DNA of 64,000 nt from Caulifigura coniformis (GTDB lineage Bacteria > Planctomycetota > Planctomycetia > Planctomycetales > Planctomycetaceae), in contig NZ_CP036271.1 of assembly GCF_007745175.1 (NCBI RefSeq), forward strand, positions 4,228,314 through 4,292,313, given 5' to 3'. Positions 40,524 to 63,743 of the stretch are shown here, piece after piece (position 1 is the first letter of the stretch; each line of letters opens with the position of its first letter). Both the position numbers and the translations under genes were made by a program. The notes beneath the pieces were generated by a model. The model was not told the DNA's origin and did not search any database. It saw only the letters and a list, made by a program, of their open reading frames with translations.

Positions 40524-40597
40524 GCGCCTGTAGCTCAGTTGGTTAGAGTGCATGCTTGACATGCATGAGGTCACAGGTTCGAGTCCTGTCAGGCGCA
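40524..40597 (+). tRNA. tRNA-Val (GAC)
   Basis: A complete 74-nt cloverleaf: acceptor GCGCCTG pairing with CAGGCGC plus discriminator A, D arm with GTTGGTTA, anticodon stem CATGC/GCATG with loop TTGACAT (anticodon GAC), and T arm ACAGG-TTCGAGT-CCTGT. CCA is not encoded. The 3' half doubles as the integration site attL of the following element, so insertion leaves the tRNA intact. Confidence 0.95.
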
Positions 40598-40598
40598 C
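40554..40598 (+). repeat. attL of element 1
   Basis: 45 bp identical to 55985-56029, starting in the anticodon stem (GCTTGACATGCATGAGG) and running one base past the tRNA 3' end. Crossover in the anticodon loop is usual for tyrosine integrases at tRNA genes. Confidence 0.92.
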
Positions 40599-45908: not shown

Positions 45909-46025
45909 GCCAAGCTCAAAGGCATCTCCGCGCCAGCGCCAGGGTTCCGACCGCTGCGCCATGTCGCGCCAGGTCTGGCGCTCATTGGCCTTGGTGGTGC
46001 TGCCTGTCGGCGACACAATCCCTGC

Positions 46026-47599: not shown

Positions 47600-47915
47600 T
47601 TGTTATTTATCGTCTGAAACGCCCTTGTCTTAGTAGGACTGCAACAGACCGGGAACGAGTCCCCCGCGAAATCCTGCAAGATTTGGATTCTTTCGGCTGA
47701 ATCCACCTTGTCTCAGGCGGGGACTGCAACACGCCTGCAACGTGGGCCGCGTCAGGTACTTCTCAAAAATCGTCCGAGAATTGTTATTTTCGGTCCGAAT
47801 CCGCCTTGTCTGACTATGTGGCGGACCATGCAACACTGGGAATGACTTCCTGAGATTCCGGCCAGTTCGTGAACAAAAACGCGAATTTGCCTTTGTCTTA
47901 CCTGCCGGGACTCTG
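47600..47915 (+). repeat. Four-copy direct repeat upstream of primase (candidate origin iterons)
   Basis: Units at 47600-47647, 47682-47732, 47781-47835 and, weaker, 47873-47915. Each has an AT-rich start (TTGTTATTT in two), then a CGGTCTGAATCCGC-like segment, a CTTGTCT core (47624, 47707, 47805; TTTGTCT at 47892), then GGACTGCAACA-like sequence. Core spacing is 83, 98 and 87 bp. The block ends about 180 bp before the primase gene. Confidence 0.65.
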
Positions 47916-48030
47916 TTCCCGAACGCGCTCCGCTGAGCGCCGGGCCAATCACGGGCTGCAACACACGAACAACTGCGGACGCGGTGCGCGTCCGCCTCTG
48001 AACCAACGGTCGCGGTAGCTACGCGATCGC

Positions 48031-48062
48031 GCCGCGCCCGGTCCCGTCCAGCCGGGCGCGGC
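48031..48062 (+). other. GC-rich hairpin upstream of primase
   Basis: Perfect 11 bp stem GCCGCGCCCGG / CCGGGCGCGGC with a 10-base loop, 33 bp before the primase start. No T run follows. Confidence 0.6.
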
Positions 48063-48095
48063 ATTGATTCACGTTCTGGACGATCAAGGGTTTCA

Positions 48096-50426
48096 ATGGA
48101 CGTATTGCGTAATCATCCGATGGCCCCGTGGCTGTCGGTCTTTGACTGTGAAACAACTGTCTTCGGCGCGAAGGAAGAACAACGCGCCCGTAACGTGCGC
48201 CACCGAATGACGCGACCGGAGTTGGTCGAGCTTCCCGACTGGGAACCCGAACTGATCGGCGTCACCGGCTTCGACCCGGAAGGCTACAGCACCTTCGGCG
48301 GCGTCGACATTGACGGCTTGAACCACGCGGCCGGCCTGACGCCGGAACGCATCGCCGAAATCATCGCCGCTCTGAAGCCCGTCAAGTTCGTCCGAGTCCA
48401 GCGCAGCAAGTCGGGGCGTGGCATTCACCTGCTGTTTCGCTGGCATCCTGACCGGCGGCCCCGTGCTTCGACCGGTTCCGATCATGCTCGCAACTGCGAA
48501 CGGGCAATTCGCGAGATTGAGCGGCAGAGTGGCCTGAAGCTGATCGGCGGCGATGCTGACTGCTTCGGACAGGTGTTGTGGATTTGGAGTAAGAACCCCG
48601 CGCCCAACGGGTTCGAGGTGTTGCAGGAAGAAACGGAGTTCGTGCCCGATGAGTTACTGGAGCTTCCTGCCCGACAGCCGGTCCCGGCTACGAACGATGT
48701 CTCAACCGTCGACTTTGATCCGCAGCATTCCCGCTTGATCGACGAATGGTCGCAGACCAACTACGCCGTCATCACGGACACGCTGACAGACGGCCGCCGT
48801 TGCGTTCGTCTGCATACCCTCGCCCTTGGTGTTCCCACGACCAGCGAGGGTAAAGACCCGCGAACACCGAACGCTTACGGCTTCCCACTGCCGGGCGGCG
48901 GGTTCATTTTCTTCCGCTTCGGCGACGTGGCGGAAATCGAACCTTGGTTCCGAACAAAAACCGGCAAGACTTGTCTGCTGATCGGCGCGGACATCGAGTT
49001 CGCGGCCCGTATGCGGCTGCGATCAAACAAGGGCGTGTTCCTCGGAACCGTTCGGGAGATTGCGGCGGTCGTTCCCGGCATGAACACGGCAGGGTTCGAG
49101 GATCGGCCCGGCGAGCTTGATCGTGACGGCGACCAGTGGATTGTTTCGGTCGCCTCGCGGAAGGAAGAACCACTTCCCCCAGGTTGGGTCAAGCAGGGTT
49201 ACAAGGCCCTGTTCTTCGTCGATGCTCCGGTCGAGGAACTATCCGAGCAAATCTACGCCGTGGTCGAGGAAGCGACCGCCGACGGCGCGGAGATGGGCGA
49301 CTTCATGCGGATGGTCGACGGCGAGCCTCGATACTTCAACGAACGGCAGTTGGAAAACGACCTCGACCGCGAAGGGAAGTCCCGTGACCAGATTGCCGTG
49401 ATGAAGCGATCGGCCGTCGTCCTTCAGAAGCGAGTCGCCCACCTGCGGCCGTCGCGAATCGAGGGCAAGTGGCTGAACATCGGTGCGAGGTACATCGTTA
49501 CACCGCAGGCCGGCGAGCATCCGACGTGGACCATGCTCGATGAGCATGTCGGCCAGACAGTGACGCCACATCTCCCGCCGTGGTGTCTCGAACATGGCAT
49601 CCGGACCGGCGGCGATTGGATGCGACTTTGGCGATGCGTGGCGTTCCAACGTCCCGACCGCCCGACGCCATTCGTCACCCTAGTATCAAAGTTGCAAGGC
49701 ACCGGGAAAACGACCTATGTCAACGCCCTCAAGTTGCTCGTCACCGGCGGAATCGCCGGCGCGACGGGGATGTTGCGAAAGAACAGTCAGTTCAATTCGC
49801 ACGTCATGCGAAGCTGGCTTGCGATCATCGTGGAATCGGACATCAGTCGTGATGGCACGTATGACTTGCTGAAGCCTCTCATTTCGGACGACGACGCGGA
49901 ATGCGAGGCGAAGTTCAAGACGGCGACAGTCGCGCAGAACTTCTGCCACTTCGTACAGACGGTGAACCACCTGCGCTACTGCCCGTTGGGCGAGCCGGGT
50001 GACACGCGGATCGCGGTCGTCAGAGTGCCGCCGATTCAGAACGAGATTGATCGCGATGAGTTGAAACGACGGCTGCAAGCTGAAGCTCCGGCCTACCTTC
50101 ACACGTTGCTCAACACGACGCTTCCGCCCCCGGCCGGCCGCCTCTGGCTGCCGATCCCGAACACGCCGGAGCGTCAATTGTTGATCGACATGCGAACGGC
50201 CCCCCTCGAACGGTTCCTCGCTGAGAAAGTCGACGAAATTCCCCACAACCGCATCCCGGCTGGTGAATTCGTCGACCGCTATCAGACGTGGTTTCTTGAG
50301 GTGATGGGCAAGGGCACTGCGCCCGGCAAGCAGGAAGTGCTTGCCGACCTGCGATCCTTCGATACGACCCTGAAGTATGTCGGCGACCATCACGGCGCGT
50401 ACGTCGTGAATGGTGCTTGGAAGTAG
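48096..50426 (+). CDS. Primase-helicase replication protein
   Basis: A 776-residue protein. The N-terminal ~210 residues look like a primase-polymerase domain (FDCETTVFG; VRVQRSKSGRGIHLLFRWH, containing the usual basic/His segment). The C-terminal part is an SF3-type helicase with Walker A SKLQGTGKTTYV (about residues 530-541), a B-like acidic strand SWLAIIVESDI and Arg-rich RIAVVRVPP. Such proteins start replication of phages, satellites and integrative plasmids. It is preceded by repeats that could be its origin. Complete. Confidence 0.8.
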   Translation: MDVLRNHPMAPWLSVFDCETTVFGAKEEQRARNVRHRMTRPELVELPDWEPELIGVTGFDPEGYSTFGGVDIDGLNHAAGLTPERIAEIIAALKPVKFVRVQRSKSGRGIHLLFRWHPDRRPRASTGSDHARNCERAIREIERQSGLKLIGGDADCFGQVLWIWSKNPAPNGFEVLQEETEFVPDELLELPARQPVPATNDVSTVDFDPQHSRLIDEWSQTNYAVITDTLTDGRRCVRLHTLALGVPTTSEGKDPRTPNAYGFPLPGGGFIFFRFGDVAEIEPWFRTKTGKTCLLIGADIEFAARMRLRSNKGVFLGTVREIAAVVPGMNTAGFEDRPGELDRDGDQWIVSVASRKEEPLPPGWVKQGYKALFFVDAPVEELSEQIYAVVEEATADGAEMGDFMRMVDGEPRYFNERQLENDLDREGKSRDQIAVMKRSAVVLQKRVAHLRPSRIEGKWLNIGARYIVTPQAGEHPTWTMLDEHVGQTVTPHLPPWCLEHGIRTGGDWMRLWRCVAFQRPDRPTPFVTLVSKLQGTGKTTYVNALKLLVTGGIAGATGMLRKNSQFNSHVMRSWLAIIVESDISRDGTYDLLKPLISDDDAECEAKFKTATVAQNFCHFVQTVNHLRYCPLGEPGDTRIAVVRVPPIQNEIDRDELKRRLQAEAPAYLHTLLNTTLPPPAGRLWLPIPNTPERQLLIDMRTAPLERFLAEKVDEIPHNRIPAGEFVDRYQTWFLEVMGKGTAPGKQEVLADLRSFDTTLKYVGDHHGAYVVNGAWK

Positions 50427-50474
50427 GCGCGAGGACACCGCGCCGCCCCTCGCTCGTTGCGCTAGTTTCTTACA

Positions 50475-50580
50475 GGCCGGAGTCCGCCGGCCGGGCACGG
50501 CGTGTCGCCGTCGCCAACGTGGCCCGCGCCGTACACGCGGGCCACGTCGTGACCACCAAGCCCGAATTCGGGCGTTCTCT
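50475..50580 (+). other. Cluster of perfect hairpins between primase and next gene
   Basis: GGCCGG-agtccg-CCGGCC (50475-50492), ACGTGGCCCGCG / CGCGGGCCACGT (50517-50547, 12 bp stem) and the palindrome GCCCGAATTCGGGC (50560-50573), which is followed by GTTCTCTTTT. The last may be a terminator. Similar stem plus TCTCTT units recur in both elements. Confidence 0.6.
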
Positions 50581-50594
50581 TTTATGGAGTTGTG

Positions 50595-50837
50595 ATGCTT
50601 GAAGACCTCACCACGTTCCTGACGTATTGCGAAGCAGGAACCACGGCTGCCGCGCCATTCGCGGACAAATTCCTTCGCGCCTTTGGCCGGTTTAGTGACG
50701 ACGCCGCACAGCAGTCGGTTCTCGACATGCTGGCGGGCCAGTCGCTTCTGAGCGCCGATCGCCGGACGGTATTCCGCAAGATCGGCCCGTTGGGGCCGAA
50801 CGGTGTTCATCCGACGCTTGGCGTTGCCCAGTTCTGA
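50595..50837 (+). CDS. Small hypothetical protein (80 residues)
   Basis: ATG at 50595 just after a GTG. Helical (LTTFLTYCEAGTTAAAPFAD), ending with a Gly/Pro-rich tail. No family recognised. It belongs to the run of small plus-strand genes downstream of the primase; a replication- or packaging-associated role is only a guess. Confidence 0.6.
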   Translation: MLEDLTTFLTYCEAGTTAAAPFADKFLRAFGRFSDDAAQQSVLDMLAGQSLLSADRRTVFRKIGPLGPNGVHPTLGVAQF

Positions 50838-50846
50838 GGTGACGCC

Positions 50847-51062
50847 GTGGACATCGAACGAGTAGTTCAACGGAGCGTCTGCGAGGGCCGGAACAATTCG
50901 AGTGTCGAGCGACTGATATTGAAATCGGTCCGCAGCCGGATCGAGAGGAGCGACCTCGCCGAATGGCCTGACTCGCGAATCAGCGCGTATCTGAGAACAC
51001 GTTATCGCTCGCGCGAGTCGCCGGAAGGCGTCGTTCTGCTTGGCGTCTATCCGAAGAACTAA
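50847..51062 (+). CDS. Small basic hypothetical protein (71 residues)
   Basis: GTG start 9 bp after the preceding stop. The product is Arg- and Ser-rich (ILKSVRSRIERSD, YLRTRYRSRESPEG) and could bind nucleic acid. No family recognised. Confidence 0.5.
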   Translation: MDIERVVQRSVCEGRNNSSVERLILKSVRSRIERSDLAEWPDSRISAYLRTRYRSRESPEGVVLLGVYPKN

Positions 51063-51121
51063 ACGGGCTTGTCGGCCCGCCCGTGAATGTGGCCGACACC
51101 AACCGATTATGAGTGTGAAGA

Positions 51122-51976
51122 ATGATTCTTGATTCGAGACTGACGTGGGCAACGCTGGCGGATGGTCAGGGTGTAGTGGTATTCAAACCACGACGACGGA
51201 CTGCGCCCACCTTGGAGTTGCTGAAACCAACCACCGACAGCGACATCGCCGATGTCGCAAAGTTGATGGGCCATGAACCTACGGCAGTAGACATTGCCCG
51301 CGGGGCTGCCGACCGAAAAGGATATGAACGGCATGCCGAGATTTCGGCACGGGTGCGCCGGGATGCAGAGCGGAATGGCCCGGTGGTCGAGCCGACGCCG
51401 GAAGAACAGAAGTTGGCCTTCCTTCGTGCAAAGGTCGATGACGAGCGCCGGGCGAAGCTGACCACGGCCGAACGTCTACTTGAAGATGCGGAGCGCGAAG
51501 CCGCTCGCAATAAGGCCGCCGCTGAACAGGAAGCTGCGCGTGCTGCCATCCGGGAGACGGACGGCTACAAGGCACTCCGGCAGCAACTCGATGACGCGAT
51601 CTTCGTGGCGACCTACAGCAAGGAAGTCAGTCAGCCGCTTCTCGATGAGATCGTTCACCAATCCGAGATGCTTGAACGGTTCCTCGATGTTCCGACGGCG
51701 CTGTCGAACGTCGCGAAGTTGAGGGACGCCGCCCGTGCCGAAGTCGAACCCGAACGACTGCAACTTCAGACCGCGCAGGACGCCCTTGCCCGGCGGGCCG
51801 CGATTTTAGGTTCTGGAGTTTTCTCCGAAGCCGTCCCGGTGATGGTCGGCGACAAGCCGTACATCCGACTCACCCGCAACGGTCAGACCATCGCCATCAG
51901 CCGCGAACGGTATGAAGGCCGCGTGAGCGATGAGGCGTTGGCCTCGCAGGTTTTCACGGAGGGCGGCAATGTCTGA
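51122..51976 (+). CDS. Coiled-coil protein of element 1 (284 residues)
   Basis: The middle third is a strongly charged coiled coil (KLTTAERLLEDAEREAARN, then AAAEQEAARAAIRE). The C-terminal part has beta strands (VPVMVGDKPYIRLTRNGQTI). No family recognised. Its end overlaps the scaffold-like gene by 8 bp, indicating joint expression; it may be a structural or accessory partner. Confidence 0.65.
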   Translation: MILDSRLTWATLADGQGVVVFKPRRRTAPTLELLKPTTDSDIADVAKLMGHEPTAVDIARGAADRKGYERHAEISARVRRDAERNGPVVEPTPEEQKLAFLRAKVDDERRAKLTTAERLLEDAEREAARNKAAAEQEAARAAIRETDGYKALRQQLDDAIFVATYSKEVSQPLLDEIVHQSEMLERFLDVPTALSNVAKLRDAARAEVEPERLQLQTAQDALARRAAILGSGVFSEAVPVMVGDKPYIRLTRNGQTIAISRERYEGRVSDEALASQVFTEGGNV

Positions 51977-52517
51977 GAAACTGTTCTCCCAAGAGGATGT
52001 TGACCGCATGCTCGAAAAAGAGCGGCGCGGGCCAGTCGCCCGGCAGATTGAATCGCTTCAGGCTGTCGTCAACCGCCAAGAGCAACTGCGGGCCGTCATC
52101 GCCGAACACGGCATCGAACCCGCCGAAGGCGAGTCCGTCGCCGACGCCGCTGGCCGGCTGTTGAACCAGTGGACGGAGACCGCCGCAAGGCGGGAAGCCG
52201 ATCACCTCGCCAGTGTGAACGCGATGAAGGCCGAAAGCGATTCAAGCATTGCCGAAGTGAAAGCGGAAATTGGCCGGATCAATGCGCAGCGCCACAGTCA
52301 CGAAATCGACTTCGCCATCGGCGAGGCCGCGCGTAAGCATGGCGCGTTCGATGCCGAGCAACTGCGCGCGTTTGTTCGTCCGCATGTTCAAACGATGGGT
52401 GACGAACACGTTGTTCGGACGCCGGGAATGCTTCAGTCGATCGACGAATTCGTCGACGCGATGCGGGTTGATCCGGCAAGCGCCAACCTCTTTCGCGAGG
52501 GGTTAGGACTGAAATGA
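51969..52517 (+). CDS. Phage scaffold-like coiled-coil protein
   Basis: A 182-residue product from the ATG at 51969 inside the end of the previous gene. The start LFSQEDVDRMLEKERRGP resembles the conserved N-terminal 'FTQEDVDxxxxxR' of phage scaffold/GP20-DUF4355 proteins. A long helical region and a C-terminal ordered part (VDAMRVDPASANLFREGLG) follow, as in scaffolds. No capsid gene is beside it, so it could act on a helper phage capsid. Similarity is by pattern only. Confidence 0.5.
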   Translation: MSEKLFSQEDVDRMLEKERRGPVARQIESLQAVVNRQEQLRAVIAEHGIEPAEGESVADAAGRLLNQWTETAARREADHLASVNAMKAESDSSIAEVKAEIGRINAQRHSHEIDFAIGEAARKHGAFDAEQLRAFVRPHVQTMGDEHVVRTPGMLQSIDEFVDAMRVDPASANLFREGLGLK

Positions 52518-52891
52518 TTCCGTTCAATGATTTCATCTATCGAGCGTGTACCGGCGGGCGTTCGCTGATTTGGGATTTGGCAACGAAGTATTGCGAACTG
52601 AACGGCTGGCCGCCGCACGAATCGTATGTGCGGAATGTCGCAGAGCAATTCAAAGAATACGCCAGCGTTACCGATCCCAAATACTGCTTCCTGATGCTGG
52701 CCGATGACCGCGAGGTCGTCGCGAAGTTCTGCGAGTCTCACAAGGTCGTGCGTGGTCAGTTCACCACGGTCGACAAGCTGGCGAAGAGAATCTGCGAGTG
52801 GAGCGTTCTTCCGCTCAATCGCAGCGTTGTTCGCCTCTTGCTGGAACGTCAGCTTGTCGGTCCCGAACGTGTCCCCGAACGGGCTTCGTGA
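52514..52891 (+). CDS. Hypothetical protein (125 residues)
   Basis: ATG overlaps the scaffold-like stop by 4 bp. Mixed helical protein with several Cys and Trp (YRACTGGRSLIWDLATKYCE, KRICEWSVLPLNRSVVRLLL). No family recognised; the tight coupling suggests it works with its upstream neighbours. Confidence 0.6.
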   Translation: MIPFNDFIYRACTGGRSLIWDLATKYCELNGWPPHESYVRNVAEQFKEYASVTDPKYCFLMLADDREVVAKFCESHKVVRGQFTTVDKLAKRICEWSVLPLNRSVVRLLLERQLVGPERVPERAS

Positions 52892-52925
52892 CGCCGTCAA
52901 CGGCGAGGCGTCATTCACCTCGCCG

Positions 52926-53013
52926 GCCCCCGGTCTGGTTCACCGGGGGCATCTCTTAGCGCCGGGCCGGTGACCCCGGCGCACGGTCCCCGGCGAGTGA
53001 TGCGCCGGGGACC
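52926..53013 (+). other. Three tandem GC-rich hairpins
   Basis: GCCCCCGG/CCGGGGGC (52926-52950) followed by ATCTCTTA, GCGCCGGG/CCCGGCGC (52959-52982) and GGTCCCCGGCG/CGCCGGGGACC (52985-53013). They fill the gap between genes and may be terminators or processing structures. Confidence 0.6.
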
Positions 53014-53059
53014 GACCCGCACAACTACGACGCCTGCGGTCTGCGCGGGCATGAGGAAA

Positions 53060-53263
53060 ATGATGCTCGAAAAGTTTCTTGATGAACACACAGAGCCAGG
53101 CGCGGCGACGTGCGATGAGTTCGCCCGTCGCTATCTCACTTGGTGCCAGCGTGGCATCAACAGAACGAACGTCGAAATGACGATCGGAAAGTTAAGAGTC
53201 TTGGGAATGCTCAGGCCCGATGGCTTGGTGAAAGTGAGGGTCAAACATGCAGATACCCGTTGA
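53060..53263 (+). CDS. Small winged-helix-like protein (67 residues)
   Basis: ATGs at 53060 and 53063 follow GAGGAAA; the frame is open to 52970 but that part runs through hairpins. The product (MLEKFLDEHTEPG, CDEFARRYLTWCQRG, MTIGKLRVLGMLRPDGLV) looks like a compact winged helix. It overlaps the ParB-like gene by 17 bp. Likely DNA-binding; target unknown. Confidence 0.55.
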   Translation: MMLEKFLDEHTEPGAATCDEFARRYLTWCQRGINRTNVEMTIGKLRVLGMLRPDGLVKVRVKHADTR

Positions 53264-53969
53264 CCAGATTGTCGCCGACGAAGATTTCAATTGCCGGCAG
53301 GGCATTACGGTTCTCTCCGTGCGTGACCTCGCCGGAAGCCTCGACACTGTCGGACAGATTCAGCCCGTGGTCGTGAAGCCTCGCGATGACGGCCGCTTCG
53401 ACCTCATCGCCGGATTCCGGCGATACTTCGCAGCTACCAAGATTCTCCAATGGGAGACGATCGACGCCGTCGTCAAAGAGGTCGACCAGCATGAAGCCGA
53501 AACGCTGAATCTGATTGAAAACATCGAACGGCAAGACCTCGATGTTCTCGCGGAAGCAAAGGCCATCGAGAAGTTGTTTCCCGCCTCGCGGTACTCGTCA
53601 GAGGATGCCGCACGGGCCGTCCGTAAATACGCCAAGTGGGTTCAACACCGTCGAACGCTGTTGCAGTTACCGGAAGACATCCAGAAGCACTTCCAAGCCG
53701 GCTTGATCCCGCTCAGCCGCGTTCGCGCCGTTCTCGAATCGGACGACCGCGAGAACACTTGCGCTGTGCTGATGGGCCGAAAGCGTCGTCAACCCTGTAA
53801 GCAACTGGGGAAGCGAAGCAAGCGCGAGGTGAGCGCGATGATGAATCGTCTCTCGCTCGAATTCGACGTTGATCCGATGGGGCCGGTGGTTGCCGCCCTG
53901 TCGTGGGCCATCGGGCATTGTGCCACTGATCGTTTTGAAAGAATCATCAAAGAGAAGAGTCCATGTTGA
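53247..53969 (+). CDS. ParB/Spo0J-like protein
   Basis: A 240-residue protein with the ParB N-terminal domain: SLDTVGQIQPVVVKP, FDLIAGFRRYFAATKI (GxRR motif) and LNLIENIERQDLDVLAEAKA. A helix-turn-helix region follows (SRYSSEDAARAVRKYAKWVQ). The family includes centromere-binding CTPases and element-borne nuclease or regulatory variants. No ParA ATPase is present, so partitioning is doubtful and a regulatory or DNA-processing role is possible. Confidence 0.82.
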   Translation: MQIPVDQIVADEDFNCRQGITVLSVRDLAGSLDTVGQIQPVVVKPRDDGRFDLIAGFRRYFAATKILQWETIDAVVKEVDQHEAETLNLIENIERQDLDVLAEAKAIEKLFPASRYSSEDAARAVRKYAKWVQHRRTLLQLPEDIQKHFQAGLIPLSRVRAVLESDDRENTCAVLMGRKRRQPCKQLGKRSKREVSAMMNRLSLEFDVDPMGPVVAALSWAIGHCATDRFERIIKEKSPC

Positions 53970-54472
53970 CAACGGGCGAGACTGAGAATGAAAGCCGCGC
54001 TCCGACATTCGCAAGGTTCTGGAGCAAAGTGGATAAGTCCGGCGACTGTTGGGAATGGCGTGGCTGTCGTTGTGGCAACGGATACGGAAGTTTCACGGTC
54101 AACGGAAAGATGCGAAGGGCCAGTCGGGTCATATGGGAGTTGACCCACGGCCCGATCGCTGCCGGTCTCTGCGTGCTGCATCGGTGTGACAATCGAGCAT
54201 GCGTGAACCCGGCCCATCTCTTTCTCGGTACGCACGCCGCGAACATGGCCGACATGACGCAAAAGGGCAGGCAGGCAAAGGGGTCGAAAGTTGCCCGCCA
54301 CGGCGAGCAACATGGATGCTCAAAGCTCACCACCGATACCGTCGAACAAATCCTGCGGTCGACCGGCACTCAAAAGAGTATCGCTAAACGATTCGGCATC
54401 AGTCGGTCACACGTCAGCGCGATCAAATTGGGCAAATTCTGGAAACACATTTCAAGGAAAACATCATGCTAA
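53963..54472 (+). CDS. HNH endonuclease with C-terminal HTH
   Basis: A 169-residue product. HNH core residues are in GLCVLHRCDNRACVNPAHLF, followed by LGTHAANMADM, matching phage-type HNH_3 nucleases. The N-terminal GDCWEWRGCRCGNGYGSF is standard. The C terminus (LTTDTVEQILRSTGTQKS, IAKRFGISRSHVSAIKLGK) is a helix-turn-helix for site binding. Overlaps the ParB-like gene by 7 bp. May be a homing nuclease or part of packaging/defence. Confidence 0.88.
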   Translation: MLTTGETENESRAPTFARFWSKVDKSGDCWEWRGCRCGNGYGSFTVNGKMRRASRVIWELTHGPIAAGLCVLHRCDNRACVNPAHLFLGTHAANMADMTQKGRQAKGSKVARHGEQHGCSKLTTDTVEQILRSTGTQKSIAKRFGISRSHVSAIKLGKFWKHISRKTSC

Positions 54473-54759
54473 CCACAGAACAGAAGACTCATTTTTGGGC
54501 ACGGGTGGACAAGTCCGGCGGCGGCGGCGCACGAGCCTGCTGGAAATGGATGGGGGCGACCCGTGCCGATGGCTTCGGCGTCCTGCGACTTGCAGGCCGT
54601 CTGACCTACCCGCATCGAGTCGCGTTCTATCTGAGCGGCGGGAAGTCGCGGACATCGCACGTCACGCATACGTGCGGAAATCATGCCTGCTGCAATCCAA
54701 AACATCTGACCACGCGACCCGGAAGCGGGAAGCTCATTCCAGTACCGGGGACGAAATGA
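54466..54759 (+). CDS. Second HNH endonuclease, short form
   Basis: A 97-residue product overlapping the first HNH gene by 7 bp. ACWKWMGATRADGFGVLRL, YPHRVAFYLSGG, THTCGNHACCNPKHL form an HNH domain without the C-terminal HTH. The HTH protein encoded at 55054 has the missing half's character. Confidence 0.82.
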   Translation: MLTTEQKTHFWARVDKSGGGGARACWKWMGATRADGFGVLRLAGRLTYPHRVAFYLSGGKSRTSHVTHTCGNHACCNPKHLTTRPGSGKLIPVPGTK

Positions 54760-55061
54760 ACCTCTTTCAACGCACCATCGAACGATTCCCCGAACTGACT
54801 TCGGCGGGCTTTGTCGATGTCACCCATCCGGACTATTCACGCCTGCGCCAGAAACTGATCGAATCGGAAGCGGCGTTCAACGCCTGCGTCCGCTACCTGA
54901 TCCACTACGCCCCGGATACGTGTGCGACCAGCGTCGGTCTGAAACACGACGTTGAACGCTACTGCAACGGGCTTCTCTATGTGCCCCAAGGCTGCGCGAT
55001 CGCGGCCTGCATCGTCGACGGTGTTGGACGAATTGACGGGCAGGTGTTGCGCTATGATTAG
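54756..55061 (+). CDS. Hypothetical protein (101 residues)
   Basis: ATG overlaps the HNH stop by 4 bp; a longer in-frame read-through upstream is a shadow of the HNH genes. The product is helical with Cys (MNLFQRTIERFPELTSAGF, YLIHYAPDTCATSVGLKHD). No family recognised. Confidence 0.6.
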   Translation: MNLFQRTIERFPELTSAGFVDVTHPDYSRLRQKLIESEAAFNACVRYLIHYAPDTCATSVGLKHDVERYCNGLLYVPQGCAIAACIVDGVGRIDGQVLRYD

Positions 55062-55221
55062 TCGCAAGGGTGAAAAGAACGGGCGTGCAAAACTGACAGT
55101 CGATGATGTCCGGCAGATTCGAGCATCATCGGAAACATCTAAGAGCCTCGCCAAACGGCTTAACGTGCATCGCACGACCATCAGTCTGATTCGGCGACGG
55201 ATCAATTGGGCGCATCTTTGA
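55054..55221 (+). CDS. Small HTH DNA-binding protein (55 residues)
   Basis: ATG at 55054 overlaps the previous stop. GEKNGRAKLTVDDVRQIRAS and SLAKRLNVHRTTISLIRRR form a helix-turn-helix of the type normally fused to HNH nucleases. It may supply DNA recognition for the short HNH protein or act as a regulator. Confidence 0.72.
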   Translation: MISRKGEKNGRAKLTVDDVRQIRASSETSKSLAKRLNVHRTTISLIRRRINWAHL

Positions 55222-55514
55222 CAGCAGATTGGATCAAGGGCTTCATCGAGGATCGCTGCGAGCCTGACGCCGAAGGCGTTTCCCTCTCAAGTTTCCACAA
55301 ACATGCGGAGCGTGTTTGTGGCGTTCTTCTCCCCTTCAAAGAGGTCGCCCGCATCCTTCACGATCTAGGCGTGAGGCCGGGCGAACGTGTTCAGTTGAAG
55401 TACCGTGAATATCGAAAGCCTGTACGCCAAGTACCTGAAGATCGCGAGCGACCCAACAGCCGCCGCCACGCTGGTCCTCGCGCATGTTCAAGCTGGTCAA
55501 ACCGACCGGCCTGA
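55218..55514 (+). CDS. Small hypothetical protein, TTG start
   Basis: A TTG at 55218 overlaps the preceding TGA (TTGA), giving 98 residues. The first ~70 residues look real (DWIKGFIEDRCEPDAEGVSL, HKHAERVCGVLLPFKEVARI) and resemble a DNA-binding fold. The last third overlaps the excisionase gene in another frame and looks non-coding, an odd arrangement; the true end could be a frameshift. Confidence 0.45.
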   Translation: MTADWIKGFIEDRCEPDAEGVSLSSFHKHAERVCGVLLPFKEVARILHDLGVRPGERVQLKYREYRKPVRQVPEDRERPNSRRHAGPRACSSWSNRPA

Positions 55515-55677
55515 ATTGCTCGACACAACGGCCGCTGCCGAGCAGCTTGGCGTGTCCAAAGCGCAGGTCCAATCGTTTGCCCGCAACGGCCAGATACGGC
55601 ACATCCGCGTTGGCCGTCTGATGAAATTCAAGCCCGAACATATCGACGAGTTCCTGCGACCAGCGTCGTTCCTGTGA
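55405..55677 (+). CDS. Excisionase-like HTH protein
   Basis: A 90-residue product from a GTG. ELLDTTAAAEQLGVSKAQVQ, SFARNGQIRHIRVGRLMKF and PEHIDEFL form the MerR-like excisionase HTH. As the last gene before attR, it is the natural directionality factor for the integrase at the other end. Confidence 0.85.
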   Translation: MNIESLYAKYLKIASDPTAAATLVLAHVQAGQTDRPELLDTTAAAEQLGVSKAQVQSFARNGQIRHIRVGRLMKFKPEHIDEFLRPASFL

Positions 55678-55685
55678 CCTCCCTC

Positions 55686-55717
55686 AAGCCTCGCCGTTTT
55701 GCGGCGAGGCTTTTTTT
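55686..55717 (+). terminator. Rho-independent terminator
   Basis: An 11 bp stem AAGCCTCGCCG / CGGCGAGGCTT with loop TTTTG and a T run to 55717. It ends the long plus-strand operon of element 1. Confidence 0.92.
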
Positions 55718-55984
55718 GTGCAACGACACTAAGTTGCATTCCTGCAACAGTCTACATAACCTGTGCAGTATTGTGTTCACCGTACTTTTTCTGCACGTCA
55801 TTGACATCTTGGATGCCTGACCTCTTGCGTGCAGTCTCGCCGCGTCGTAGGGTGATGGACCGTCTGTGCAACTGCACCAAGTACCTGTTCTGAAGCATCT
55901 TTCTACGCCTAAATGGCTTACAACTGGTTTTCCGAAGGTCAATAACCCCAGCAAATTCGGCCTTTCGTCGAAATCGCTTTGATC
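55718..55984. promoter_or_regulatory. Right end of element 1 with arm-type words; otherwise no gene
   Basis: TGTGCA-type words at about 55716 (GTGCAACGAC), 55761 (CTGTGCAGTA), 55789 (TTCTGCACG) and 55864 (CTGTGCAACTGCAC) repeat those at the left end. TGCAACA-type words occur at 55732-55750. No coding sequence is credible here. Confidence 0.5.
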
Positions 55985-56029
55985 GCTTGACATGCATGAG
56001 GTCACAGGTTCGAGTCCTGTCAGGCGCAC
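55985..56029 (+). repeat. attR of element 1 / attL of element 2
   Basis: 45 bp identical to 40554-40598. It contains only the tRNA 3' half and cannot fold as a tRNA. Because a second integrase follows directly, this copy also serves as the left end of the next element. Confidence 0.92.
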
Positions 56030-56274: not shown

Positions 56275-57681
56275 ATGAGCGAGCGAAAACCATTCAAACG
56301 AAAGTTGTCGGACGGGTGCTTCCGTTGGTACGTCCTTTGGAACGGCCGTCAGCAGTGGCTCGGAAGGGATGAAGCCGAAGCGCAGCGAAACCTGGAGCGA
56401 CTGAAGGCCGGGGAAGCCGTCGTCAGTCCGAAGCAACAGGCCGCGAAGGCCGCATTGCCGGAGTACGTCGACAAGTTCCTGGACTGGACTCAGGCCAACA
56501 AGCCGGCCCGATACGACGCCTGCCGATTTGCGTTGCGTCCGTTCGTCGTGAGATTCGAGCGGGAGCCCGTCGCCAAGCTGAGCAGGCGCAAAGTCGAAGC
56601 CTGGATCAGTGAGCAGCCGAATCCCTTCCGCACGCGAAGGGCCGTTGTGCGTTGCTTCAAGTGGCTGGTCAATAACGGCCACGTGCCGTCATCACCGCTG
56701 GCCGGAATGGAAATCACCGTCTCCGAACTGGTCGACAAGTTCCTGGAGCACGCGAATCGACACTACGTGAAGCGCGGCAAGGTCACGTCCGAAGTGAATT
56801 CGATCAAGATGGCGGTCGCGCCGTTGGTCGACCTCTTTGGTGACCTGCCCGCGAGCCAGTTCGGACCGGTCCGCCTGGAGAAGGTGCGAACGGCGATGAT
56901 TGCCCGCGGTTGGTGTCGGAGCGCCATCAACCAGCACTGCGGTCGCATCCGGCGCGTCTTCAAACGGGGTGTCCGTCTCCAACTGATCCAACCACGCGTC
57001 CTGGAAGCCCTGAAGGCCCTGGAGCCGCTGTTGCACGGCCGGACGGAAGCTGTTGAAGCGGAGCCGGTCGAGCCAGTTTCGGAGACGACTGTGGAAGCAA
57101 CGATTCCACACCTGCCGCCGATGATCGTCGACATGATTCGCGTTCACCGGCTCACGGGGATGCGTCCCGGTGAAGTCTGTTCGATGGACTGGACAGAGAT
57201 CGACACGAGCGGAGCCGTGTGGGTGTACCGCCCGACGTCCCACAAGTTGGAACATCACAACCGGAAACGTGTGATCGCGATCGGCCCGCAGGCACAAGCG
57301 GTTCTGATGAAGTACCGCGGATTCGGTCCCGTCTGGCCTGGAAAGAACGGTGCGTTCACCACGGCCGCTTACAGGCGAGCCATCACCCGCGGCTGCGAGT
57401 TCGCGTTTGGGATGCCGAAGGAACTTCGCCCGCGAGGGAAGGCGCTGAAGGAACTCACCGCTGAGCAGCGGGAGGACGTGAAGCGACGAGCCGAAGCGTG
57501 GCGCGAGGAACACACGTGGCACCCGAACCAACTCCGTCACAGCTTCGCGACCGAGCTTCGGAAGTCTGAAACTCTGGACGTGGTTGCGGCCACGCTTGGT
57601 CACAGCCGTATCGCGACGTCAGAGCTTTACGCGGAACTCAACTTGGCAGCGGCGACGGCCGTTGTGGCGAAAATTGGGTAA
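56275..57681 (+). CDS. Tyrosine recombinase with two core-binding regions (integrase of element 2)
   Basis: A 468-residue protein, longer than the usual 350-400. Residues ~60-145 (LPEYVDKFLDWTQANKP ... RAVVRCFKWLVNNGHVPSSP) match the core-binding domain of integrase 1. A second core-binding-like region occupies ~147-260 (VSELVDKFLEHANRHYV ... NQHCGRIRRVFKRGVR). The catalytic domain has Arg in HRLTGMRPGEVCSMDW, LRHSFATELRK and Tyr in ATSELYAELN. The HxxR His is Asn (NQLR). The duplication may reflect fusion of two integrases or altered site recognition. Confidence 0.9.
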   Translation: MSERKPFKRKLSDGCFRWYVLWNGRQQWLGRDEAEAQRNLERLKAGEAVVSPKQQAAKAALPEYVDKFLDWTQANKPARYDACRFALRPFVVRFEREPVAKLSRRKVEAWISEQPNPFRTRRAVVRCFKWLVNNGHVPSSPLAGMEITVSELVDKFLEHANRHYVKRGKVTSEVNSIKMAVAPLVDLFGDLPASQFGPVRLEKVRTAMIARGWCRSAINQHCGRIRRVFKRGVRLQLIQPRVLEALKALEPLLHGRTEAVEAEPVEPVSETTVEATIPHLPPMIVDMIRVHRLTGMRPGEVCSMDWTEIDTSGAVWVYRPTSHKLEHHNRKRVIAIGPQAQAVLMKYRGFGPVWPGKNGAFTTAAYRRAITRGCEFAFGMPKELRPRGKALKELTAEQREDVKRRAEAWREEHTWHPNQLRHSFATELRKSETLDVVAATLGHSRIATSELYAELNLAAATAVVAKIG

Positions 57682-58251: not shown

Positions 58252-58824
58252 ATGATCCTCATTGACAACATCGAATCTCTGGACGTCGCCGAACTTGCTG
58301 ACCGTCTCGACCTGTCGAGTTTGGACGAGTACGGAGTCGAGATCGCCCGGAATGCATTCATCACCGGAGACGTGGACATGATGCCATTTCGTCTCGACTT
58401 GCGTTTCGTCTGGATCAATGCCCCCTTGCTGAAGCATCGCGGGATGTACGAACAAGTCCTTCTGCATGCCTACACGGGAGCGAAAGGCAACTGGTCTCAT
58501 TGGTCGATCTGCTGCATCGAGAGGCTGTTCAATATCGCCGATCGCGACCGACTACGGGCGGCCGGCAACCCGCTGCCCAGTGAAGGCCCGTTTACGCTCT
58601 ATCGCGGAGTGTCGGGCGTTGGACAACGTCGACGGCTAAGAGGTTTCTCCTGGACAGACTCGGTTGACGTCGCCCGTTGGTTCGCCAATCGGTTCCCTGG
58701 CATTCTGAAACATCCCGCAGTCCTGAAGGCTACGGTTGCGGCGAACGAAGTCTTCGCATTCATCAACGGGAGCGAACGCGAGTTCATCTGTCAGCCCAAA
58801 CAATTCGAGCGGATTCCGGCATGA
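58252..58824 (+). CDS. R-S-E type ADP-ribosyltransferase-like protein (toxin candidate)
   Basis: A 190-residue product. ADP-ribosyltransferase signatures of the arginine-type group are visible in order: Arg in FTLYRGVSG (R118), the STS-like strand GFSWTDSVDVARWFA (S133-W-T), and ExE in NGSEREFICQP (E175-R-E177). The N-terminal ~110 residues are helical with no known domain. No signal peptide, so it acts in the cell. Its stop overlaps the next start by 4 bp, and the partner is an HTH protein, the usual toxin-antitoxin layout. Target unknown. Confidence 0.7.
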   Translation: MILIDNIESLDVAELADRLDLSSLDEYGVEIARNAFITGDVDMMPFRLDLRFVWINAPLLKHRGMYEQVLLHAYTGAKGNWSHWSICCIERLFNIADRDRLRAAGNPLPSEGPFTLYRGVSGVGQRRRLRGFSWTDSVDVARWFANRFPGILKHPAVLKATVAANEVFAFINGSEREFICQPKQFERIPA

Positions 58825-59168
58825 ACGAACTACTTCAACAACTCGACAAGCGGCGACGCATGGTCCAAATGACTCAGACGCACCTCGCGTTTCAGTCCGG
58901 ACTGACTCAGGCCGCGGTGTCGAACATCCTGGCCGGAAAGACATCGCCGACGCTCGCGACCCTGAAAGCTCTCGTCACTGCGATGGGCGGCAAGGTCACC
59001 GTCGAGTTTCCAACCGAGCCTTACCAGTTCAGGAACCAGCGTGCCGAATGGCTTGATCGGTCACCGTCGAGCGGCATGGTCTGGACGATTCACAAGGACT
59101 GGCAAAGCCTGCCGCCGCTTCCGCGCCGTCCAGCGCCGAAACCGACCGGAAAGCCCGACAACTCATGA
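58821..59168 (+). CDS. Xre-type HTH protein (antitoxin candidate 1)
   Basis: A 115-residue product. LDKRRRMVQMTQTHLAFQSG and LTQAAVSNILAGKTSPTLAT form an Xre HTH, followed by AMGGKVTVEF. The Pro-rich C-terminal tail may contact the toxin. ATGA overlaps on both sides place it between two ADP-ribosyltransferase-like genes. Confidence 0.85.
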   Translation: MNELLQQLDKRRRMVQMTQTHLAFQSGLTQAAVSNILAGKTSPTLATLKALVTAMGGKVTVEFPTEPYQFRNQRAEWLDRSPSSGMVWTIHKDWQSLPPLPRRPAPKPTGKPDNS

Positions 59169-59683
59169 TTCTGTACCACTTCACGGCGCTGATTAACCTG
59201 CCGCCGATCATCCGCAACGGCATCACTGACGGCCGCTTGCCAGTCCATCGTCGGCACGGGTTCATCCGTTGCGCCAGCCTCACGACCGAGCCCGACCACC
59301 GTCGTCAGTCTTGGTACACCGACACCGGGTTCGATCGGACTCGCGTCCGGCTCACCTGCGACGTCGATGCCTGGAGCGTGCGGCAGATTTACCAGCGGTA
59401 TCCGACTCCCGTGAGGATTCAGCGCCAGCTTGTCCCGTGGGAGATGCGTGGGAAGTGGTTCTTCGCTGCCAGCGTCCCGCCGGAGAAGCTGACGGTGGAG
59501 ATTCGACACGACGACTACGAACCCGTGCCCCCTGATGAACTCGCGGGTCTGATCCACGACATCGACCTGGAGCGCCAGAACTTCAGGTTTGAAGCCGGTC
59601 CGCACGGAGAGATTGCGGACCTGATTGCTTCACGTTCCTGGCTCGTTGACGGTCCCTCTGTCCCGAAAGTGCTTACCGTATGA
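59165..59683 (+). CDS. Second ADP-ribosyltransferase-fold candidate (H-type)
   Basis: A 172-residue product starting MILYHFTALINLPPIIRNGI, the 'YHFT ... NL ... I ... G' start seen in DarT/PARP-like and related ART-fold proteins with a catalytic-site His. RCASLTTEPDHRRQ follows, then VRLTCDVDAW and FFAASVPPEKLTVEI strands. The final Glu cannot be assigned with confidence. Different from the first candidate, so this is not a simple duplication. Overlaps both neighbours by 4 bp. Confidence 0.5.
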   Translation: MILYHFTALINLPPIIRNGITDGRLPVHRRHGFIRCASLTTEPDHRRQSWYTDTGFDRTRVRLTCDVDAWSVRQIYQRYPTPVRIQRQLVPWEMRGKWFFAASVPPEKLTVEIRHDDYEPVPPDELAGLIHDIDLERQNFRFEAGPHGEIADLIASRSWLVDGPSVPKVLTV

Positions 59684-59946
59684 ACTTCGCAGAAATCGTT
59701 TCCACTCGGCTCAAGGCGCTGAGCATGAATCAGCGTCAGCTTGCGCAGCGGGCCGGCCTCACTCCGATGAAAGTGTCTCGGCTCCTGACCGGGAAAGAAG
59801 AACCGTCCCTGGCCGTGGCTGAGTCGCTCCTGAAGGCTGTCGGCGGCGCGTTGCAGCCTCACTTGGTCGACGTCGTCACCTACAAGACCGGACTTGCCCA
59901 TAAGAAAGGCTTGCCGGTCGACTCGCCGGAGTTGTGGGAGCAGTGA
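59680..59946 (+). CDS. Xre-type HTH protein (antitoxin candidate 2)
   Basis: An 88-residue product. RLKALSMNQRQLAQRAGLTP and MKVSRLLTGKEEPSLAVAES form a standard Xre HTH, then AVGGALQPHLV. It follows the second ART-like gene exactly as the first HTH follows the first. Likely binds its own promoter and neutralises the upstream protein. Confidence 0.85.
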   Translation: MNFAEIVSTRLKALSMNQRQLAQRAGLTPMKVSRLLTGKEEPSLAVAESLLKAVGGALQPHLVDVVTYKTGLAHKKGLPVDSPELWEQ

Positions 59947-59957
59947 CACTTGAATTG

Positions 59958-59986
59958 ATGCCGGGTAATTGATAACTATCCGGCAT
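59958..59986 (+). promoter_or_regulatory. Inverted repeat over a start codon
   Basis: ATGCCGG (59958-59964) and CCGGCAT (59980-59986) with a 15-base AT-rich spacer. The right arm includes the first bases of the ATG at 59985. It could be an operator or an RNA hairpin limiting translation. Confidence 0.6.
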
Positions 59987-60812
59987 GTCGTCGAAGGATA
60001 GTGAATTTCGGCTTCCCGATCAGGATTTATCCAACATCCTGTTCCTTGTGCTTTGCTTGCTGGCTGAGAAGCCGCATCTTCAACGGCGGCTTAGGACACG
60101 ACTAGAAGAACTCAATTGGCGTCCGGCATCCGGAAAGCCAGCTTTTCACGGCCTGATGGCCCGGATTGAATCGCTGGGCTGGGCACTCTCGACGTCGATC
60201 GACGATGGCGAATCCCGCGACCGACTGTGGCAACTGACTCGCGAAGGTTACGAGGCCTGGAAAGCGCAATTCGATTTCACGGATATGACCGCGAGGCGAT
60301 GGGCGGGCGTTCGGAAGGGTGTGGCTGAATCGGATTTCGTGCTGCTGGCGGGCCTTCCGCCGCGAGTCGGTAAGCCAAAGATTGTTGAGCGGATGCCGAC
60401 TGCTGATGAGAGTCGGAAGATTGCTCAAGCAGCGCGTCCAGACCTGCAACGAATCCTGGCGTTTTCATCACTCACGGGCGCGCGTCCTTACGACCTAATC
60501 ACTGCACGAATCGAGTCAGTGAACCTACGGGCTCGGAAACTGACTTTGGAGGAAAGGTCTGCTTCAGGTAGTCGAATCACGGATCGGGAAGTTTCGTTCA
60601 ACGCCGACGCCTCACGTGTGATTCGAGAGGCGATGTCTCAGCGGGCAAGCGGTCTCGTTTTCCTGACGACGACTGGACGCCCTTGGAATGCTGACTCCCT
60701 GGCGCGAGCGTTTCGGACTGCACGTCGGAAAGCGGGCGTTCCAGAAGATGTTTCGTTGAGCGGACGTGGGGGACGTGTTGCACGCGCAGATTTCACGGAG
60801 GTCGGATCATGA
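59985..60812 (+). CDS. Winged-helix protein fused to a truncated tyrosine-recombinase catalytic domain
   Basis: A 275-residue product. The N-terminal ~90 residues form a winged helix (LFLVLCLLAEKPHLQRRLRT, GLMARIESLGWALSTSI, LWQLTREGYEAWK). Residues ~140-260 match the first half of a tyrosine recombinase catalytic domain (LAFSSLTGARPYDLITARIE with the first Arg; VFLTTTGRPWNADSLARAFR; TARRKAGVPEDVSL). The chain then ends without HxxR, H/W or Tyr. No recoverable frame follows, so it is not simply frameshifted; it probably binds DNA without recombining. Confidence 0.68.
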   Translation: MSSKDSEFRLPDQDLSNILFLVLCLLAEKPHLQRRLRTRLEELNWRPASGKPAFHGLMARIESLGWALSTSIDDGESRDRLWQLTREGYEAWKAQFDFTDMTARRWAGVRKGVAESDFVLLAGLPPRVGKPKIVERMPTADESRKIAQAARPDLQRILAFSSLTGARPYDLITARIESVNLRARKLTLEERSASGSRITDREVSFNADASRVIREAMSQRASGLVFLTTTGRPWNADSLARAFRTARRKAGVPEDVSLSGRGGRVARADFTEVGS

Positions 60813-61030
60813 GCGTCCGAAAGAAGAGCGTGGAAACGGCCGAAATACCTGCACTCTGGAAACGCCTCTGGCCGGCCTGCGTGATCGTGGTGGTTGCGGT
60901 TCCAACGGCGACTCGCCTCTGGCCTGTTGCATTCGAGTTCAACGTGACACTCAAGGTCACGAATCGAGAAGCGGCCGAACCTTTGAAATTGCCTGATCCG
61001 GCGAACGCAGTCACCGATCATTCGAGATAA
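60809..61030 (+). CDS. Small single-pass membrane protein (73 residues)
   Basis: ATG overlaps the previous stop (ATGA). One hydrophobic helix (WPACVIVVVAVPTATRLWPV) follows a short basic N terminus; the C-terminal ~30 residues are polar and would lie outside. It sits 10 bp before the KAP NTPase gene, which is itself membrane-anchored, so a complex is plausible. Confidence 0.65.
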   Translation: MSVRKKSVETAEIPALWKRLWPACVIVVVAVPTATRLWPVAFEFNVTLKVTNREAAEPLKLPDPANAVTDHSR

Positions 61031-61040
61031 GAGGCAAGGA

Positions 61041-63743
61041 ATGAAGCCCGATTCACCTGCACCTTCCGACGACGCCGAACCCGCACAAAGGAAGGCGCTG
61101 GCGGTCCGAATCCGGCTTCATCGCTTCATCATTCTCGCTGCTTATGCGGTGATTGCGGCAGTTTCCAGCGCGGTCGCAGTTACATTCGGCCAAGCCCACA
61201 CATACTGGGGAGACTTCCTCACGCGGCTTCCACTTCAGCATTGGACCTGGATGATTGTCATCAGCGTTGGACTGGCCGCACTCGCGGCCTTTCCTAGCTG
61301 TCGTCTCTATCCCCTGAGAAGCTCGCATCTCAGACTGGACTATCCGCCGCTCTGGATCGGCGTCATTGCAGGAATCGGCCTTCTGCCGGGCTTCATTTTT
61401 CTGATCCAAAAGTACGTTCTTGCAGCTCGCGCCGACAATACGCCTGTGCTGACCGATTGGATCGTGGCCGTTCTGCTTCTCTTACTGATCGTGATCCTCT
61501 GGTCCTGGGGCATACGGACACTAGACGACCTTTCAGAACGCATGTTGCTAGAGACAGCTTCCGGTGAACATCCAATTCGAAGTGCAGCCGAAGATGAATA
61601 CCGCTTCGATCGCGTCGGGAAGAGATTGGCACATGGACTGCGCCAACAGCGGTATCGAAGCATTGGACTCATCGGCGGTTACGGAAGCGGAAAGACCGGG
61701 ATTACGAACTTGATTCGAGAGAATGTTGAGAAAATCCGTCACCAAGCAGAGTTCGCACAGTATCCGGAGTTGTGGTTCTCCCATACGACGTGCTGGGGAT
61801 TCGCCGACTCGAAATCGGCCATTCACGAAATCTTGGATGCCGCAATCCGAGAGGTCGACGATCGCGCGGACACGCTCGGCGTGCGATCGCTACCTGATTC
61901 CTACATTTCAGCCGTCACTGCATCCTCAAGCTGGATTGAACAGCTTTGGTCGCTGTTTAGTCGGCATCAGAGTCCAGAAAGCAGACTGGCGGGTCTGTCC
62001 CCAATCTTGACTGCCCTGAATGCACGGCTGGTCATCATCGTTGAGGACTTAGATCGAAACCAAAGCCAAGATTTCGATCGTCAGGCTGTTCTTGCGATGC
62101 TTCAACGAATCAAAGACATCCCTTCGCTGTCATTTGTCCTCACCGGCGGTCGCGAGAGTACCGGAGACTCGCTCGCATTTACAAAGCTCTGCGATCACGT
62201 CGAGCCGATGCCCACTCTGCCATTGGTCGACGTCGCGAAATCCCTGCTGGCGGCGCGAGAGGCAGCATCGAAGGCGTACGGCGACGTCGATCCCACTCCT
62301 GACCCGCGCCGTAGCGACTTTGGCCAACTGCTTCGCTGGGATGGCCCATCACTCATACCGAAGTACGATTCGATCGAGCGACGTCTGCTTATGCTGCTCA
62401 GAACCCCTAGGAACCTGAAGCACACAATAGAACGGTCAGCGGATCTTTGGGAATCGCTGCATGGGGAAGTGGACTTTGATGAGTTGCTCTGCGTTTCAGC
62501 GCTCCATGTCGCTGCACCGTCCGCTCTGGATTTTATAATTCGTAACATCGACGACTTCCGCAAAACAGCCAGCCGCATTGAAAGCCAAGACCGAAGTGAC
62601 GGTGCGATAAATGCACCCTGGTATGACCGGTGGCAAGAGGTTGTGCCAAAAGCCGACTTCGACGTCGATTCTGTCACGACAATTATTGACTACCTTTTGC
62701 CTGGAATGGTGACTTCAAAGATCGCAAGAAGCTATGGGAGTCCTGGTCCGCAAGCGCTTTGCCGGGTGAAGCCGACGGATTACTTCAGGCGAATCATGGA
62801 AGGTGAAGTCCCGGCGGACGAACTTACCGATCAGGAAGTGTTGAGGTTGATCGAAGAGGCTCGCAAGGGCGGCAGCTTGACGACGCTCGCAGACAAAATG
62901 GTGTCGAGCTTCGCCTTTATTGCGAAGTGGGAGCAGTTCGCGGATCGATTTCCGCGAGATCGATTGCTGGAACTGATTAGCTTGACGTTGAAGGAGGCCG
63001 TGACACCCGCGCTCTTTAAGCGCCAGCCCGGCTCGGAAGCATGGCTGGTCCCGCTCCGGGCCACATACCGCTGCAAGCCGATGCCCGCAGATCAGTATGT
63101 GGATTGGATGTGGCGAGAAATGGAAAAGGCGCTTCCGAAGAACATTGGTCTCGCGAACAGCATCTACGACCAGTTCGCGCTAGGTGAGCCCCGCCTGATT
63201 GAATGGGACCAACGTGAATACTGTCGAGACCGCCTTCGTGAGCGGGTTTATGCGTGGTGCAAAGAGCACTGGCCAAAGCTAACCCCAGCAGAATTTGCCA
63301 AGGCAGTCGATGGTCCAGCAGGGTCGCGTGGATGGGAACTGTGTCAGTTAATGTTCCCTGGCTCATCGCGTGGATTCAAAGTGAAACACTCCGAACGCAG
63401 CGATTGGGCATGGGCAGGCCCACTGATTCAAGCGGCGGCCGTTGCCTGCCCTGACATCATGATTCGCCAAGTCGCGAATCTCGTTTTCAAACAGGTTCAG
63501 TTCACTGTTGGCCCGGTGGACGGCAAGTCGCTGCGGGCTCTTTTCGGAGAAAATGGTCGGAATGTTGTGAAGTGGATCGCCGACAATTCCCATCGCTTGC
63601 CTCCGGTCGAAGGGATGGATGGAAAAGTTGTCGACGATCTAGCCGAACGATGGCTCCTGCATGGTGACGAGCCGGAAGATGGCAAAGCCACTGACCCAGT
63701 CACTGATAACCAAGACGGGACTGCGCCGCCTAGCGATTCATGA
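61041..63743 (+). CDS. KAP-family membrane-anchored P-loop NTPase
   Basis: A 900-residue protein. Four membrane segments lie at about 29-50, 70-86, 104-124 and 139-157. The KAP NTPase domain has Walker A IGGYGSGKTG (211-220) and Walker B LVIIVEDLDR (~333-342), then a sensor-like FVLTGGRES. The C-terminal ~450 residues are helical with no recognised domain. KAP NTPases have membrane helices at or inside the NTPase domain and occur in phage-defence and mobile contexts. It ends the cargo operon that starts with the ART-like genes. Confidence 0.85.
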   Translation: MKPDSPAPSDDAEPAQRKALAVRIRLHRFIILAAYAVIAAVSSAVAVTFGQAHTYWGDFLTRLPLQHWTWMIVISVGLAALAAFPSCRLYPLRSSHLRLDYPPLWIGVIAGIGLLPGFIFLIQKYVLAARADNTPVLTDWIVAVLLLLLIVILWSWGIRTLDDLSERMLLETASGEHPIRSAAEDEYRFDRVGKRLAHGLRQQRYRSIGLIGGYGSGKTGITNLIRENVEKIRHQAEFAQYPELWFSHTTCWGFADSKSAIHEILDAAIREVDDRADTLGVRSLPDSYISAVTASSSWIEQLWSLFSRHQSPESRLAGLSPILTALNARLVIIVEDLDRNQSQDFDRQAVLAMLQRIKDIPSLSFVLTGGRESTGDSLAFTKLCDHVEPMPTLPLVDVAKSLLAAREAASKAYGDVDPTPDPRRSDFGQLLRWDGPSLIPKYDSIERRLLMLLRTPRNLKHTIERSADLWESLHGEVDFDELLCVSALHVAAPSALDFIIRNIDDFRKTASRIESQDRSDGAINAPWYDRWQEVVPKADFDVDSVTTIIDYLLPGMVTSKIARSYGSPGPQALCRVKPTDYFRRIMEGEVPADELTDQEVLRLIEEARKGGSLTTLADKMVSSFAFIAKWEQFADRFPRDRLLELISLTLKEAVTPALFKRQPGSEAWLVPLRATYRCKPMPADQYVDWMWREMEKALPKNIGLANSIYDQFALGEPRLIEWDQREYCRDRLRERVYAWCKEHWPKLTPAEFAKAVDGPAGSRGWELCQLMFPGSSRGFKVKHSERSDWAWAGPLIQAAAVACPDIMIRQVANLVFKQVQFTVGPVDGKSLRALFGENGRNVVKWIADNSHRLPPVEGMDGKVVDDLAERWLLHGDEPEDGKATDPVTDNQDGTAPPSDS

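Follow-up and report, generated by a model that had tools for sequence, protein, structure and literature searches.

A winged-helix/half-recombinase protein heads a cargo operon with a PifA-like KAP NTPase in a tRNA-Val-associated planctomycete element

A three-gene operon in the 64,000-nucleotide stretch of Caulifigura coniformis DNA analysed here (the window) opens with a 275-aa protein in which a PadR-like winged helix is joined to the N-terminal half of the catalytic domain of a tyrosine recombinase, and closes with a membrane NTPase of the KAP family that is homologous to PifA. The simplest account consistent with the data is that a catalytically dead, recombinase-derived DNA-binding regulator heads the operon and that the PifA-like NTPase would be its effector; we put the probability of this reading at roughly 0.4. 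It is preferred because the regulator belongs to a five-member family whose members are all catalytically dead, because members of that family lie next to recombinases, because MrpR offers a precedent and the PifC–PifA gene pair a comparable layout, and because of the homology of the NTPase to PifA and a palindrome that is unique in the genome.

Because the 3' end of tRNA-Val is present in three copies, the last of which lies beyond the window, two tandem integrated elements can be delimited (Table 1). In each, a separate tyrosine integrase gene immediately follows the left repeat. Element 1 carries genes for a DNA methylase, a DUF5906 primase, a ParB, an HNH protein, and an HTH_17 protein, and element 2 carries its integrase, two toxin-antitoxin-like pairs, and the three-gene operon, with a tape-measure-like protein beyond the window. 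As the operon is located within the boundaries of element 2, its three genes are cargo of this second element behind tRNA-Val. Neither of the toxin-like proteins that are paired with Xre (190 and 172 aa) matched anything in Pfam or NCBIfam; possibly they are ADP-ribosyltransferase toxins.

Table 1. Features of the two tandem elements and of the three-gene operon (window coordinates; extended coordinates beyond the window).
Feature	Position	Strand	Remark
tRNA-Val	40524-40598		
tRNA-Val 3' part, first copy	40554..40598	+	left attachment site of element 1; 45-bp direct repeat
Element 1	40599-56029		
Element 1 tyrosine integrase	40809		
Element 1 HTH_17 gene	55405		excisionase-like
tRNA-Val 3' end, second copy	55985..56029	+	exact 45-bp repeat; junction of elements 1 and 2
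Element 2	56030-72186		16.2 kb
Element 2 tyrosine integrase	56275..57681	+	complete, 468 aa; Phage_integrase 2.1e-14; XerC-like
Two pairs of overlapping genes (190 aa with Xre; 172 aa with Xre)	58252..59946	+	toxin-antitoxin-like; Xre HTH match
Imperfect palindrome ATGCCGGGTA-ATTGATAAC-TATCCGGCAT	59958..59986		covers start codon of 275-aa gene; candidate operator
275-aa gene	59985..60812	+	PadR-like winged helix + N-terminal half of tyrosine-recombinase catalytic domain
73-aa gene	60809..61030	+	predicted single-pass membrane protein
KAP-family P-loop NTPase gene	61041..63743	+	900 aa; four predicted N-terminal membrane helices; PifA homologue
tRNA-Val 3' end, third copy	72144-72186 (extended coordinate, beyond window)		43 bp; closes element 2

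The three open reading frames, their ATGA coupling, and the 38-bp distance to the preceding Xre gene were all located as described in the original prediction. The 275-aa and 73-aa genes overlap by the ATGA at 60809-60812, 10 nt separate the stop of the 73-aa gene from the start of the KAP gene, and 38 nt lie between the stop of the upstream Xre gene at 59946 and the start of the 275-aa gene. Codon usage ranks the annotated frame best of six in each of the three genes, with scores of +0.12 bits/codon for the 73-aa gene and +0.09 for the KAP gene; within the 275-aa gene, the winged helix scores +0.16 bits/codon and the recombinase part a weak -0.07. The single membrane pass proposed for the 73-aa protein agrees with its one predicted hydrophobic segment (residues ~24-42), and no relatives of this protein were found.

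The 275-aa protein consists of a PadR-like winged helix (residues ~1-103) and a recombinase half (~124-258), followed by the conserved R261 and a short tail. Residues 140-254 match positions 5-125 of the 172-position Phage_integrase profile (E 4e-7), and since the profile is covered only to position 125, the recombinase domain stops before box II; no C-terminal recombinase half was seen in any of the three frames after residue 258. The earlier description of the protein as lacking HxxR and the nucleophile holds for the box II histidine and the tyrosine, which are absent together with the His/Trp residue, but has to be adjusted at two points: Arg I is kept (R167, within GARPYDL), and R261, a family-invariant arginine 14 residues from the C-terminus, occupies roughly the position at which box II would be expected to start. 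The catalytic β-hairpin lysine is replaced by S192, the HKTA of active relatives aligning with RSAS. The AlphaFold model resolves the recombinase lobe with confidence (pLDDT above 90 for most of residues 141-258) and the winged-helix half poorly (pLDDT 50-60). Searched with Foldseek, the model matched XerA, lambda Int, and other recombinases, as well as, weakly, the phage phi3T repressor SroF (9rgl, E 0.006). The predicted design, a winged helix followed by a catalytically dead half of a recombinase, is supported. The winged helix is related to the standalone PadR-like proteins L053 and L054; the PadR profile does not match the 275-aa protein itself and scores weakly in relatives (0.0042 in the family member L118, and 3e-5, below the cut-off, in L053). 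An alignment that included the standalone PadR proteins misaligned them and did not serve for folding. With these two modules, the 275-aa protein probably binds DNA.

By its sequences, the winged-helix/half-recombinase protein is a member of a small conserved family. Searching first with just the winged helix and then with a four-member profile yielded five intact loci in four genomes: the window, L118 in genome G718, L052 and L114 in G217, and L155 in G761. The other four members are 19-30% identical to the 275-aa protein, the closest being the 274-aa L118 protein (30% over 255 residues, E 7e-42), and the L052 member has 252 aa. Members match the whole family profile, whereas ordinary recombinases match only from about residue 120 to 255. 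All five proteins terminate within ~25 residues of the invariant arginine corresponding to R261; the lysine, the box II histidine, and the tyrosine are absent from every one of them, and Arg I is also lost in the G761 relative. The full-length relatives, all of which are without an active site, therefore bear out the expectation that close homologues would not have complete recombinase active sites. Scans for close relatives with the single protein against genome and viral contigs gave no match, nor did a scan of the viral contigs with the family alignment, and a search of phage records returned an ordinary integrase only. The family was not found in a limited search of open-access full text and is undescribed as far as checked.

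Three of the four other members directly adjoin a complete tyrosine recombinase. At both G217 loci, the family gene lies downstream of a complete recombinase that is extended at its C-terminus; at L052 this extension is a Trans_reg_C-like (OmpR-type) winged helix; in G761, the family gene lies 4 nt upstream of a complete recombinase, and in G718 the next large gene downstream is a transposase. This adjacency suggests a role in element control. The L052 locus (L052:2690-6872) encodes in series a ParB-like protein, the complete recombinase with the OmpR-type winged helix, and the winged-helix/half-recombinase protein.

The family bears directly on two rival explanations of the 275-aa protein. 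It could assist the integrase as an accessory or directionality factor, binding att-like arms without cutting them and controlling excision, its place before the KAP gene being incidental. Such a role would fit the retention of the recombinase DNA-binding lobe in its fold and the recombinases next to its relatives, and no recognisable excisionase gene was found among the element 2 open reading frames tested, element 1 having its HTH_17 gene. However, the 275-aa gene lies 2.3 kb from the element 2 integrase and is coupled to the KAP operon rather than to the integrase gene, and the palindrome sits at its own start codon and not at att; we consider this explanation possible but on the unlikely side. 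At the other extreme, the open reading frame would be a decaying integrase fragment that happened to become joined to a PadR gene and has no function. The weak codon bias of the recombinase half and the occurrence of a decayed 157-aa half-recombinase in the same genome (at 6441268) would be expected of such decay, but the reading is contradicted by the four other intact members, which share both domains and the end point, and we regard it as highly improbable; a one-off pseudogene is excluded because the truncation point is conserved in the family. The 157-aa half-recombinase (L055:4672-5616; genome 6440671-6441615) has a comparable end, and a small gene next to it resembles a gene from the right end of element 2; as it is without a winged helix, it was rejected as a family member and treated as a decayed integrase.

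The imperfect palindrome at the start of the operon is 29 bp long with 10-bp arms and occurs once in the 6.76 Mb genome at up to 2 mismatches. It is only modestly better than shuffled sequence (5 of 300 shuffles equalled it), and no clear counterpart was found upstream of the family relatives. It is no more than a candidate operator for the 275-aa protein. A wider regulon served by further palindrome sites was considered and rejected, as a search of the genome that allowed up to 2 mismatches gave no second site.

The 900-aa protein matches KAP_NTPase (Pfam PF07693) with 28.9 bits against a gathering cut-off of 20, and carries a Walker A motif (GGYGSGKT, residue 212) and a Walker B motif (LVIIVEDLD, residue 330). 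In the classical KAP form, which is not shared by all members, the membrane helices are inserted inside the P-loop domain. The window protein differs from this form: its four hydrophobic segments (residues 29-47, 71-89, 104-122, and 136-154), which account for the four membrane helices anticipated in the original prediction, all lie at the N-terminus before Walker A, and none lies between Walker A and Walker B except the Walker B strand. Homology to PifA is confined to the NTPase region (BLASTP E 9e-7, 19% identity; hhalign E 2e-9; PADLOC PifA 1e-14). The AlphaFold model is too weak in its membrane part (mean pLDDT 66), and Foldseek returned generic AAA+ matches, ORC/Cdc6 and TRIP13. Thirteen planctomycete relatives and one fragment in G761 were collected, and none was found in viral contigs. 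Two of these relatives, in two planctomycetes, lie within DISARM/Druantia-like operons, one together with a DrmMI/type IIG-like methyltransferase and a DruE/DrmA-like helicase (L048:1038-15421), the other with such a methyltransferase and a DrmD-like end (L072:12-8556). Because relatives sit in such operons, a defence role for the KAP family is supported, and the proposal that the membrane KAP NTPase plausibly serves in defence is upheld by this context and by the PifA homology. The neighbours of the window KAP gene in element 2 include no methyltransferase or helicase of the DISARM/Druantia kind. A shortened KAP paralogue with 41% identity, followed by an IS3-like transposase, is present in the same genome (L044:7506-9224), where it adjoins ParA and a relaxase-like gene.

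The same support does not extend to the three genes as a set. They had been proposed to form one phage-defence system, in which the half-recombinase would sense phage DNA and trigger the membrane NTPase; the translational coupling of the genes, the homology of the KAP protein to PifA, the KAP relatives in defence operons, and the adjoining toxin-antitoxin-like genes are all in keeping with it. Yet the three genes were found together at no other locus, and KAP relatives without the other two genes are what the original prediction had named as refuting it: neither the winged-helix gene nor the 73-aa gene was found upstream of any of the 12 KAP relatives with readable upstream sequence, none of the four other loci of the half-recombinase family has an adjoining KAP gene, and no KAP gene was found anywhere in G718 or G217, a KAP fragment in G761 lying on a different contig. 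The 73-aa gene, moreover, is without relatives. Because the two families occur apart, a dedicated three-gene defence system is unsupported and quite unlikely, and the set looks like a one-off cargo operon rather than a recurring defence system. Slightly less probable still is that the KAP protein, as a membrane-bound NTPase, serves to maintain or transfer the element and is no antiviral effector. The paralogue beside ParA and the relaxase-like gene would suit such a function, as would the many KAP relatives that are solitary in ordinary chromosomal surroundings, but the PifA homology and the two relatives in DISARM/Druantia-like operons argue against it. The boldest proposal, a new class of sensor for recombination or phage DNA structures that would gate the KAP NTPase directly and cause recombination-triggered abortive infection, is very doubtful.

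The preferred regulator–effector reading draws on two known systems. MrpR (YopR) of SPbeta is a catalytically dead tyrosine-recombinase fold that acts as a DNA-binding phage repressor (PMC10516654), and the family described here likewise has a recombinase fold without catalysis, SroF being also a Foldseek match. MrpR, in contrast, retains its core-binding and catalytic domains in full, the lysine and tyrosine included, whereas the window family has the first half of the catalytic domain only, with a PadR-like winged helix instead of the core-binding domain. On plasmid F, a gap of 1 bp separates the gene for the PifA NTPase from that for PifC, a transcriptional repressor, upstream of it, and ccdAB and an integrase adjoin the pair; as in the window, a DNA-binding regulator directly precedes a KAP NTPase on a mobile element, with a toxin-antitoxin pair and an integrase nearby. 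The regulators, however, are unrelated (PifC was compared with the 275-aa protein as a possible homologue, and no homology was found), and the window operon differs in the four N-terminal membrane helices of its KAP protein, the low identity of that protein to PifA, and the extra 73-aa membrane protein. Other systems resemble single parts of the operon. PadR regulators have a related winged helix, but the window protein falls below the PadR profile, and its winged helix is followed by a recombinase lobe. The DISARM/Druantia-like operons share the KAP family, but the window KAP gene is without their methyltransferase or DruE/DrmA-like helicase. QatA of the antiphage operon qatABCD is also a KAP NTPase (PMC12424860) and gives a weak profile match to the window KAP protein, but QatB, QatC, and QatD are absent here.

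In the regulator–effector operon, the 275-aa protein would keep DNA binding through both its winged helix and its recombinase lobe, and most likely represses its own operon from the palindrome over its start codon; it may also tune the integrase of the element. The membrane-anchored, PifA-type KAP NTPase would most likely be the effector. Upon infection or loss of repression, it would hydrolyse NTP, disturb the membrane, and block the phage. PifA has been reported to sense T7 proteins, leading to membrane depolarisation (PMC8594841), and by analogy the window KAP protein could depolarise the membrane in the same manner. The 73-aa membrane protein may act with the NTPase, as its partner or adaptor.

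A recombinase fold that has turned into a regulator is already known, and the half-recombinase form is new as far as checked. The family shows that exactly the N-terminal half of the catalytic domain of a tyrosine recombinase can persist alone as a probable DNA-binding module. MrpR is a dead recombinase that has become a repressor; the family would extend that case to another phylum, in a fused form that is smaller and lies next to integrases. The KAP relatives add a planctomycete branch to the PifA-like NTPases, with two of its members embedded in DISARM/Druantia-like operons.
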